33,737 nt of DNA from a virus: positions 1-33,737 of IMG/VR virus record IMGVR_UViG_3300007538_000095. One strand, given 5' to 3'. Position 1 is the stretch's first letter; each line of letters opens with the position of its first letter. Under the pieces are notes generated by a model. It was not told where the DNA came from and did not search any database. It saw only the letters and a list, made by a program, of their open reading frames with translations. The translations under genes were made by a program, and so were the position numbers. This document shows, one piece after another, positions 29,963 to 33,737 of this stretch.

Positions 29963-32230
29963 ATGGCAAAACTAGGGATATTAACTGGAACAACTCCAAA
30001 TGATGGCTCAGGAGATACTCTACTTCAAGGTGCCATCAAAATTAATAGTAATTTTAATGAGATTTATTCAAATTTTGGAGATGGATCCAATCTTACATCT
30101 CTAGTTGGATATGCAACTGAAGGGTATGTTGATAATGCAGTAGCAGATATAACTGTTGGTATTGTAACTAGTGGAGATCTTGTAGGATTTGCTACTTTAG
30201 GAGATATTGCTGGAGTATCTACTTTTTCTGGAGATTATAATGATTTAATAAACACACCGACAATACCATCAGATACTGGTGATTTAACAAATAATGCCGG
30301 ATTTGTAACTACAGGAAATTTATCCAATTATGTTCAGGAAGAACAAATAATTGGATTTGTTACAGATGGATATGTAACAAATGCCCTTGTAGGGTATGCA
30401 ACTGAAGCGTATGTAATTTCTCAGGGTTATGCGTCTACCTCATACGTAGATAATCAGATAGAAGAATATTTCACTTCAAATATTGTAGGATATGCAACTG
30501 AAGGATATGTCGATAATGCTGTAGTTGGATTTATAACCTCAGGAGCATTAACTGGATATGCAACTGAAGGTTATGTAACAAATGCTCTTGTAGGATATGC
30601 AACTGAAGGATATGTTGATAATGCTGTAGTTGGATTTATAACATCTGGTGGGTCAGCTATTGGTTTGACTTCATTAACTGGTGCTGCAGAAGGAACATAT
30701 GGAAATTCACTCAATACCCCACAAATAACAATTGATTCTACAGGAAGAATTACAGATATTCAACAAATTGGAATTTCTGGAGGTGGAGGTGGAGGTGGAT
30801 TTGGTATAAATGTTTATGATAATGGAGGGTCTGTAGGATTTGCAACTGATATTTTCTTTAGAAATAATCTTGATGCAGTTTCTGCAGGAAATACAATTTA
30901 TATTGATGTAACTGGAGTTGCTACTGAGGCATATGTAACAAATGCTCTTGTAGGATATGCAACAGAGGGTTATGTTGATAATGCTGTAGTTGGATTTATA
31001 ACCTCAGGAGCATTAACTGGATATGCAACTGAAGGTTATGTTGATAGTGCAGTAGTTGGATTTGTAACTTCGGGTGGAAGTGTTGAATATGCTATTGTAT
31101 CTGGAGTAGCAACAGTAGCAGGGATAGCAACTTATACTTCGGAATGGATTCTTGGAGCATCTGGAACTGATCATTATACTTTTACTGGACCAGGTTTAAC
31201 AGGAGCAGAGAATGATCCGGATATTTACCTTGTTAGAGGTCAAAAGTATAAATTTAACAATCAAAATAGTTTAGGAGCACATCCTCTTAGAATTCAAACA
31301 ACTCCAAATGGATCTACAGGAACTCAGTATGATGATGGAGTCACGAATAACAATGCGGCAGGTCAATCTACACTAGAGATAGATGTTCAATTTGACGCTC
31401 CGGATATTCTTTACTATCAATGCACAGTTCACCCAAACATGGGTGGCAAAATTTTCATCGATAATAGTGGAACATCTTTGTATGTTGATGGAAATGCTGG
31501 TATTGGAACTACGAATCCAATAGCAAAATTAGATGTTCGTGGAGATGTTTACATTTCTGGAGTTGTTACTGCATCATCATTATCCGGAAATGCGTCATCA
31601 GCAGATTATGCAACAAACTCGGGTGTTGCAACTTATGCAGGATCTTCTGGTATTGCTACATACGCAACAAATGCTGGAATAGCAACTTATTCAGACTCTT
31701 CTGGAATAGCAACTTATGCTTCGAGTTCCGGAATAGCAACTTATGCTTCGAGTTCCGGAATTTCTACAGAAGTATCTGGAGGAATTGCATCAGTAACTCA
31801 ATTATCAGTTTCTGGTGTTTCTACATTTACTGGGATAGCAACCTTTACTCAAATTGGAATATCCACAACAAATCCTAAAACAAATTTCCAGACAGAAAGA
31901 TATACAATTAAAACTGGATTTGGAACATATACTGCCTCTGCAGGAATATCTACGGACATTGATAGTTTTACAATTTCCTCAAATGATTTTAGAACATCTG
32001 AATATACTTTACATTTTGAATATAATTCAAATATACAATCTCAAAAAGTTCTCGTAATGCAAAACGGAACTACTGCATATGCTCAAGAATATGCAATTAT
32101 GTATCAACCAAATCAGATTGTTTCAGTTGGTGCAACTATTTCTGGAGGAGACTTAAAATTACAAGTTACTCCAGAAACCGGTGTCAATGGATTGACAACT
32201 TACAGATTTGTAAGAGGGGCGTTAATCTAA
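29963..32230 (+). CDS. Fibre/connector-like virion protein with a cupredoxin-like domain (755 aa)
   Basis: Modular. Residues 1-41 (NDGSGDTLLQ...KINSNFNEIYSNFGDG) match the N-terminal module of T4 gp9 and gp10 (KIN-x-NF-x-x-IY...GD), which docks on the baseplate. Residues about 45-370 are fibre repeats built on GYATEGYVDNAVVGFITSG, broken by a Gly7 run near 272. Residues about 395-512 form a cupredoxin-like domain (DPDIYLVRGQKYKFNN...) with H440, C487, H490 and M493, a full type-1 copper set. Short SSGIATYA repeats follow near 555-600. The C-terminal ~100 residues (RTSEYTLHFEYNSN...TTYRFVRGALI) look like a gp9-type or trimeric fibre head domain. It has its own late promoter. Copper binding is inferred from ligand spacing; the fibre or connector role is likely. 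Confidence 0.8.
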   Translation: MAKLGILTGTTPNDGSGDTLLQGAIKINSNFNEIYSNFGDGSNLTSLVGYATEGYVDNAVADITVGIVTSGDLVGFATLGDIAGVSTFSGDYNDLINTPTIPSDTGDLTNNAGFVTTGNLSNYVQEEQIIGFVTDGYVTNALVGYATEAYVISQGYASTSYVDNQIEEYFTSNIVGYATEGYVDNAVVGFITSGALTGYATEGYVTNALVGYATEGYVDNAVVGFITSGGSAIGLTSLTGAAEGTYGNSLNTPQITIDSTGRITDIQQIGISGGGGGGGFGINVYDNGGSVGFATDIFFRNNLDAVSAGNTIYIDVTGVATEAYVTNALVGYATEGYVDNAVVGFITSGALTGYATEGYVDSAVVGFVTSGGSVEYAIVSGVATVAGIATYTSEWILGASGTDHYTFTGPGLTGAENDPDIYLVRGQKYKFNNQNSLGAHPLRIQTTPNGSTGTQYDDGVTNNNAAGQSTLEIDVQFDAPDILYYQCTVHPNMGGKIFIDNSGTSLYVDGNAGIGTTNPIAKLDVRGDVYISGVVTASSLSGNASSADYATNSGVATYAGSSGIATYATNAGIATYSDSSGIATYASSSGIATYASSSGISTEVSGGIASVTQLSVSGVSTFTGIATFTQIGISTTNPKTNFQTERYTIKTGFGTYTASAGISTDIDSFTISSNDFRTSEYTLHFEYNSNIQSQKVLVMQNGTTAYAQEYAIMYQPNQIVSVGATISGGDLKLQVTPETGVNGLTTYRFVRGALI
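30512..31041 (+). repeat. 65-nt exact direct repeat within the fibre gene
   Basis: Bases 30512-30576 and 30977-31041 are identical over 65 nt, starting GATAATGCTGTAGTTGG and ending GAAGGTTATGT, 465 nt apart and in the same reading frame. A neighbouring 32-nt exact pair (30572-30603 and 30932-30963) lies in the same region. They encode the GYATEGYVDNAV repeat. Identity at silent positions points to recent duplication or gene conversion rather than protein-level selection alone. Confidence 0.85.
31703..31756 (+). repeat. 27-nt perfect tandem duplication in the fibre gene
   Basis: The 27-nt unit at 31703-31729 is repeated exactly at 31730-31756. It adds nine residues in frame (an IATYASSSG unit) to a run of degenerate copies of the same unit upstream. 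Exact identity marks it as a recent slippage event. Confidence 0.9.
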
Positions 32231-32231
32231 A

Positions 32232-33737
32232 ATGAAAACAACTACTGATTTTATACAAAGAGAACTTGTATCAGAACTTCCTGATGATTCTCCACAATCT
32301 TATGAGGTTTATATAAAAAATGCTTCAGATTGGCAAGAAATTCACGATTATATTATAAATGAAAATGAAATAGATGGAATACCAAATAGAAGAATTTCTT
32401 GCATTTCTGAAATGAAGTGTTCGAAAAAAAGATCCGTTTATGAAATGTCAAAGAATGAGGCAGAGATATTAAAAACACATCCAAAAGTTCAATTTGTCAC
32501 ACCATCAACTTTATATAATCCTAAAGTATTGGAACAAAGAAAGATTGATGAGCAATTTGACAGGCATTTAGATACCAATAGATATAAAGATGATATTACA
32601 AATAGAAGAACAACTGGAGATCCTGGATCAGTATTAAATTTTACTCAATGGGGATTGTCTAGACATTCATACACTTCAAATAATTATGGATCAAGCACTT
32701 TAATTAATGAAGATATTAAGTATTCTCTGACAGGAGAGAATGTTGATGTAGTTATTATGGATAATGGTGTTCGATGGGATCACCCAGAGTTTTTACTACC
32801 AGAATATACATCAGTTCCTGTCGGAGTTGCAACAGAAACTGTAAGTAGAGTCAGAGATATTTTAATTCACGGTCAAGATGAATATGGTATTGATTGGGCA
32901 TCCGAAGGTTTAGTTGCTCCTGGAACAGGATCACTAGCAAATTATACTAAAGCAGAAGCATTGCAGAGTGAAACATTTAATACAACTCCGCCAAATACTG
33001 TATGGCACGGAACTCATGTTGCAGGAATTGCTGCAGGAAATCAATTTGGATTTGCTTTCAAGTCGAATATATGGAGTATTGCATGTGTCGATAGATCAGA
33101 CCTTGGATTTTCAGATCCATCAGATGGATTTGATTATATCAAAGTATGGCATAAAAACAAACCTATCAATCCAGCAACAGGTAGAAAAAATCCAACTATT
33201 GTAAACGGCAGTTGGGGCCTTAGACAATTTGTTTCTTACGGAGCTCCATATCAAGTAAATTTTAGAGGATCATCATATTCTTCTGGAGACATAGAAGGAT
33301 CTAATTCATTTTTACCTCCAGTTTATAATATTTCTACACTTAGTGGTTATTATCAATTTACTTCAGTTCATGCAACATCTCAAGCAACAGCTGATGAAAT
33401 ATTTGATGATCCTGATTGTAAAGATATATCTTTTGTCTTTTCTGCAGGTAATTCGGGAAATCCTAGTGGTAAGCAAGATATTTTTAATGGAGTTGATTAT
33501 AATAACCAATTTACTAGCGGAACTTTTTATTATGGAGGTCAAGTTGCCGAAACTAGAGGTGCAGTAGATGAATATTTTAATCGTGCTGGAACTCCATCTA
33601 TAGCACATCAGGGTCAAAATGATGCTCCCATTTCAGTTGGTTCTCTTGATAATGTTGTAGTTACAAGTGGAATAACTTCAGAAAGAAAAAGTAATTTTTC
33701 AAATACTGGGCCAGCAATTGATATTTGGTCAGCAGGA
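32232..33737 (+). CDS. Subtilisin-like serine protease (S8), cut by the window end
   Basis: Open from the ATG at 32232 through the last base (502 codons), so the C-terminus lies outside the window. Three of four family signatures are visible: VVIMDNGVRWDHPEF with catalytic D177, WHGTHVAGIAAG with catalytic H259, and VFSAGNSG with oxyanion N407. SVGSLD and FSNTGPAIDIWSAG follow, after which the Ser box (GTSMAxP) would be expected within about 10-20 residues, beyond the edge. Residues about 22-95 (SYEVYIKNASDWQEIHDYI...THPKVQFVTP) resemble an I9-type inhibitory propeptide. There is no N-terminal signal peptide, so it is probably not exported by Sec. The long stretch between Asp and His (82 residues) is an insertion relative to subtilisin. 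It follows the fibre gene by 1 nt, with GAGGGGC as a distant ribosome site. Probably virion-associated or a processing enzyme. Confidence 0.88.
   Translation, partial: MKTTTDFIQRELVSELPDDSPQSYEVYIKNASDWQEIHDYIINENEIDGIPNRRISCISEMKCSKKRSVYEMSKNEAEILKTHPKVQFVTPSTLYNPKVLEQRKIDEQFDRHLDTNRYKDDITNRRTTGDPGSVLNFTQWGLSRHSYTSNNYGSSTLINEDIKYSLTGENVDVVIMDNGVRWDHPEFLLPEYTSVPVGVATETVSRVRDILIHGQDEYGIDWASEGLVAPGTGSLANYTKAEALQSETFNTTPPNTVWHGTHVAGIAAGNQFGFAFKSNIWSIACVDRSDLGFSDPSDGFDYIKVWHKNKPINPATGRKNPTIVNGSWGLRQFVSYGAPYQVNFRGSSYSSGDIEGSNSFLPPVYNISTLSGYYQFTSVHATSQATADEIFDDPDCKDISFVFSAGNSGNPSGKQDIFNGVDYNNQFTSGTFYYGGQVAETRGAVDEYFNRAGTPSIAHQGQNDAPISVGSLDNVVVTSGITSERKSNFSNTGPAIDIWSAG

Follow-up and report, generated by a model that had tools for sequence, protein, structure and literature searches.

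A predicted type-1 copper site of the cupredoxin kind in the fibre connector protein of a T4-like cyanophage, and its recurrence in virion proteins of aquatic phages

The stretch of viral DNA analyzed in this work (hereafter the window; 33,737 nucleotides, IMG/VR record IMGVR_UViG_3300007538_000095) encodes a 755-amino-acid protein, of which residues ~390–506 form, with a probability we put at roughly 0.8, a cupredoxin domain with a complete and selected type-1 copper site, present as a module in the gp9-type connector of a T4-like cyanophage. The domain is very probably a copper-binding cupredoxin, as predicted from its sequence and modelled structure, and its copper competence is strongly supported. 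The positions of the protein, its parts and the four predicted ligands are given in Table 1.

Table 1. Features of the domain-bearing open reading frame, in window coordinates.
Feature	Position	Strand	Basis
755-aa fibre/baseplate connector protein, gp9-type, PHROG 677	29963..32230	+	ORF and PHROG match
N-terminal segment, residues 1-47, common to other tail fibre and baseplate wedge proteins	29963..30103	+	PHROG 6942, PHROG 958
Fibre region of GYATEGYVDNAV-type repeat units	30107..31055	+	37-nt direct repeat, 13 copies
Cupredoxin-like domain, residues 390-506	31130..31480	+	Profile match, AF2, Foldseek
His440, first predicted Cu ligand, HP motif before strand	31280..31282	+	
Cys487, predicted thiolate Cu ligand, sole Cys of the 755-aa protein	31421..31423	+	
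His490, predicted Cu ligand	31430..31432	+	
Met493, predicted axial Cu ligand	31439..31441	+	
C-terminal fibre region downstream of the domain, GIATYA-type repeats	31607..31768	+	Repeat family D4

The protein matches PHROG 677 (‘baseplate wedge tail fiber protein connector’) with an E-value of 1.1e-43, over its residues 1–501 and profile positions 1–410 of 412, which makes it a member of this family, annotated as joining fibre to baseplate. Its beginning matches PHROG 6942 (residues 1–47, E 5e-12) and PHROG 958 (residues 6–45, E 1e-7) as well, and residues 1–47 are probably the end by which the protein attaches to the virion. The open reading frame lies in the tail and neck region of a T4-like cyanophage fragment, where gp6-, gp7- and gp8-type wedge proteins are followed by gp13/gp14-type neck proteins, the fibre/connector frame itself and a subtilase (the T4 names of the neighbors being our interpretation of PHROG names). 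The gp8-type protein is closest to those of Synechococcus phages (e.g., S-SRM01, S-T4), at ~55% identity.

Some other genes of the window deserve a mention in their own right. The gp14-type neck protein (PF11649; 28838–29935) has a C-terminal extension starting at about residue 181, another shared virion module, to which parts of numerous further tail and structural PHROGs are similar. The subtilase gene (PF00082, E 6e-13; 32232–33737) adjoins the fibre gene and is cut by the end of the window, and in P-SSM2 a PF00082 gene is likewise positioned beside a domain-bearing protein; by analogy with the subtilase of S-H9-1, the missing end of that of the window may carry a cupredoxin domain too. At 1837–2502, a 221-aa frame with seven Cys matches PHROG 3704 (‘ferredoxin’) with an E-value of 4e-108; neither Pfam nor NCBIfam gave support for a ferredoxin, and the name is doubtful.

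The original prediction, made from the sequence of the window, read residues ~395–512 as a blue-copper-like domain with His440, Cys487, His490 and Met493 as ligands. All four residues are found at these positions in the translation of 29963–32230, with the claimed spacing (i.e., H-x46-C-x2-H-x2-M), and the profile places the domain at nearly the same residues, 390–506. The step of 47 residues from the first His to the Cys is indeed that of plastocyanin, and the C-x2-H-x2-M spacing that of amicyanin. Counted over its translation, the protein has one Cys, four His and four Met. In principle, a pattern of four residues could be a mere chance match in a low-complexity fibre protein, and outside the domain this one is rich in repeats. 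Even a loose form of the pattern (C-x2-5-H-x2-5-M with a His 30–60 residues upstream), however, emerged in just 10 of 200,000 shuffles of the 755-aa protein, the chance expectation of the exact pattern is ~1.5e-7, and the conservation of the ligands across phages, described below, already refutes this explanation, whose likelihood we consider negligible.

Profiles were needed for the detection of homology to known cupredoxins, since searches with the single sequence of the window copy gave no significant match: phmmer against the PDB retrieved NirK only, at an E-value of 0.13, short of significance, and no cupredoxin match was found in Pfam. A profile of 23 viral relatives (alignment A1) retrieved NirK, amicyanin, pseudoazurin and plastocyanin, all of them weakly (best E 4.7e-4); the first His was two residues off in the alignment of this narrow profile to amicyanin. 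When the PDB was searched with the profile of 18 very diverse copies (alignment A2; mean column identity 35%), the E-value was 1e-6 for NirK and ~1e-5 for both rusticyanin and plastocyanin; in these last two, the residues that bind Cu line up with the four predicted ligands. The profile search proposed with the original prediction therefore gives NirK, rusticyanin, plastocyanin and amicyanin. Aligning the domain alignment to the PetE of P-SSM2 with hhalign gave an E-value of 3e-6, and NCBIfam scans of the relatives match amicyanin, rusticyanin, plastocyanin, halocyanin and pseudoazurin. Profile homology to known cupredoxins is detectable, and the four residues follow one another as the ligands of cupredoxins do, in line with a type-1 copper site. 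Where scores were compared with curated cut-offs, these are not reached. PF00127 (Copper-bind) is matched weakly by 7/23 and 6/18 relatives (best 4.6e-4), the score compared being 13.5 bits for one relative against a gathering cut-off of 21.2, and TIGR02657 (amicyanin equivalog) is matched by 7/18 relatives (best E 2.8e-4), the first member scoring 20.9 bits against a cut-off of 110.2. For this reason, we consider the domain a separate branch of the cupredoxin superfamily, outside PF00127 and TIGR02657.

The AF2 model of the domain, for which alignment A1 was the input, is a β-sandwich with a mean pLDDT of 86.9 and a pTM of 0.79. Foldseek matched this model to 30 PDB entries at E<=1e-3, all of them cupredoxin-fold proteins (three-domain NirK, amicyanin, rusticyanin, plastocyanin, laccases, factor V, a COX2-type domain and nitrous oxide reductase), with moderate TM-scores of ~0.4–0.5. 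In the model, H440 immediately precedes a strand, C487 closes the penultimate one, H490 belongs to the loop that follows and M493 leads into the last strand; this placement of the four residues is the cupredoxin arrangement. The model thus predicts a Greek-key β-sandwich of the cupredoxin type, and in fold and strand placement of the ligands the structural check suggested along with the original prediction turns out in its favor. A second AF2 model, of the divergent S-TIM5-type branch (alignment A4), is of low quality (pLDDT 71.5), its PDB matches being Ig-like only and at E>0.05, so that generality of the fold to this branch rests on sequence. In BFVD, the domain model finds matches with TM-scores up to 0.63–0.65 among ‘beta-sandwich proteins’ of giant viruses (Pithovirus LCPAC302 and LCPAC304, Marseillevirus LCMAC201).

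The ligands are where the domain varies least, so that a lack of ligand conservation in relatives, which the original prediction had named as grounds for its rejection, did not materialize. All four are invariant across the 23 relatives of A1, and the invariant columns of the 18 diverse copies of A2 are H, Y, C, H and M only, the Y standing two residues before the Cys. Of 365 copies, 114 remain after reduction to <80% identity, and 109 of these have the complete His/Cys/His/Met set; the five most conserved positions among them are the four ligands and one Tyr, and the Gly and Pro of the fold vary more than the ligands do. As some of the search seeds contained the Cys-His motif, conservation was retested in a ligand-independent way, with a bait made of the first 200 residues of S-SM1 gp9, in IMG/VR scans and reference phages. 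The domain is C-terminal in 79/79 of the full-length gp9 proteins so obtained, the ligands are intact in 63/63 distinct domains, and 74 of the 79 proteins have exactly one Cys. These gp9 sequences are mutually related and do not represent independent events, a point that the diverse A2 set covers. In S-SKS1 (NC_020851.1, L040:7986-8330) two extra residues in the ligand loop turn C-x2-H-x2-M into C-x4-H-x2-M, a change by which the site could be tuned.

Loss of ligands is seen in some copies (the first copy in P-HM2 gp7, L045/L071; L061 in P-TIM40; L066 in the 6180-aa protein of S-SM1; L182 and L212), which means that the fold tolerates it, and such copies provide natural metal-free controls. 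Their persistence could be taken to suggest that the domain is a metal-free Ig-like or adhesion β-sandwich, or that it holds another metal (e.g., zinc), with the conserved residues serving the fold or a binding surface. The Ig-like matches of the low-confidence S-TIM5-type model point the same way, and so do weak Pfam matches to Big_7 and CBM_4_9. Such an interpretation, however, would hardly explain why the ligands are better conserved than the fold's own Gly and Pro, why their spacing is of the amicyanin type or why, in alignments with plastocyanin and rusticyanin, they fall on the Cu ligands. Neither can a disulphide explain the conserved Cys, a role that is ruled out since most copies have a single Cys. 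We thus hold the metal-free or other-metal interpretation to be improbable, and a cupredoxin copper site the better explanation.

A relative of the window domain is encoded in 352 of 50,697 phage records. Wherever the host is given, it is Synechococcus, Prochlorococcus, Pelagibacter or Methylophilales, all aquatic; the other records are marine or uncultured. Scans with A2 found copies in 10/10 whole phage records and 4/4 viral contigs. P-SSM2 has four in long virion-type frames and one weak match in a 131-aa frame, which is its annotated PetE plastocyanin, recovered blind to the annotation; P-HM2 has five profile matches, with ligands not intact in all. The proteins concerned are diverse. The domain occupies the C-terminus of gp9 in S-SM1, occurs in long fibres of S-SCSM1 and P-SSM2, in a podovirus structural-region gene of P-GSP1, in a structural protein of S-TIM5, in neck-region structural proteins and in a fibre of a Pelagibacter phage, ends a subtilase in S-H9-1, and is present in two or more copies in some proteins. 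With the N-terminus of the window protein as bait, 43 fibre frames (31 complete) were recovered, and only three of them carry the domain, one being from a near-identical contig, which makes it an optional module in this type of fibre. The domain, therefore, behaves like a portable module and not like a fixed part of one protein. No cellular relatives appeared in a first GTDB scan, and a plasmid search gave no domain match. When the S-TIM5-type domain served as query in a second GTDB scan, four MAG/SAG contigs were retrieved, which are probably viral, since the domain genes of 3/4 match phage tail PHROGs.

Amicyanin and the tethered cupredoxin domains of three-domain NirK, which share the C-x2-H-x2-M loop, are the top profile and fold matches. 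The phage domain differs from them in being tethered in a fibre and in its longer His-to-Cys span (47), and stays below the amicyanin cut-off. The same 47-residue step is found in plastocyanin (cyanobacterial PetE, including that of phage petE), whose four ligands align; but plastocyanin is a small free-standing electron carrier, encoded in phages by an auxiliary gene, whereas the phage domain is a virion module, and its loop from the second His to the Met is shorter (C-x2-H-x2-M against C-x2-H-x4-M). Its ligands are also in register with those of rusticyanin, and its His-Pro-Phe context resembles the surroundings of the type-1 His in laccases (i.e., the HPF motif found in multicopper oxidases). 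The phage domain, though, comes without an enzyme domain and without a type-2/3 copper cluster. Among the cyanophage gp9 connectors of PHROG 677, the family of the window protein, the domain is the C-terminus of every full-length gp9 sampled, while the window protein continues for some 250 residues past it.

What such a site would do in a virion can be proposed with less confidence. Given copper binding, a role in docking or stability is our preferred but tentative suggestion, at somewhat short of even odds, with a redox role coming second. The cytoplasm, where virions are assembled, is poor in free copper, so the metal would most likely be loaded after release, from the lysate or seawater. 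The bound Cu would then pin the loop that joins the last two strands, and the sandwich locked in this way would be rigid and stable, with an end face that could dock a partner (i.e., a second protein of the fibre or baseplate, or the surface of the host).

A redox-active site would instead cycle between Cu(I) and Cu(II) and gate a step of infection, for example the triggering of the gp9-type connector, by sensing redox at the host surface. The presence of the full electron-transfer ligand set, Met included, in 109/114 copies and in every sampled gp9 argues for it, because a Met-complete set exceeds the need of a purely structural metal site. On the other hand, one redox trigger common to a subtilase and to fibres so varied is hard to imagine, and we know of no redox partner of the phage domain. 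Adsorption of several marine cyanomyoviruses is reported to be light-dependent (PMC2984593), which is consistent with a redox site, though the link to light is one of association only. We deem redox activity unlikely, while the more specific idea, that a type-1 copper centre on the gp9 connector end or fibres senses the redox state at the surface of the photosynthesising host and renders adsorption or triggering light-dependent, appears quite improbable.

Another conceivable role, by analogy with iron, is that of a Trojan horse, whereby surface copper would let the virion use a component of host copper uptake as receptor. T4 gp37 contains bound iron, and iron has also been proposed for the fibres of marine phages (PMC11705849), a precedent in which metal is likewise held by a phage tail fibre, and all matched records with a named host infect aquatic bacteria. 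Those iron sites, however, are HxH motifs between the chains of a trimer, whereas the predicted cupredoxin site is made of His, Cys, His and Met of a single chain, and the domain often sits in gp9, the connector of fibre and baseplate, and not at the fibre tip. Such use of copper is, in our opinion, a long shot next to the docking or stability role preferred here.

The petE plastocyanin of cyanophages has been described as an auxiliary gene (PMC3037559). In the open-licence literature, which was the scope of our search, we found no account of virion proteins with cupredoxin domains, and none of the PHROG and record annotations examined names a cupredoxin; the family of PHROG 677 is named, its cupredoxin identity is not. 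The domain recurs, apparently unrecognized so far, in hundreds of ocean phages, in proteins of their baseplates and fibres. While its fold and site are of known kinds, it is new to find them employed widely as a module of virions.

If copper is indeed present in these sites, abundant cyanophages would have several copper proteins in their virions, with several sites per genome, a pool of phage-bound copper would be added to the trace-metal chemistry of the ocean, and the adhesion apparatus of cyanomyoviruses, which is poorly annotated, would become easier to approach. The domain also offers a testable candidate explanation for the light-dependent adsorption of several cyanophages. Finally, cupredoxin matches in viral contigs may be structural modules of the virion, and not auxiliary metabolic genes.
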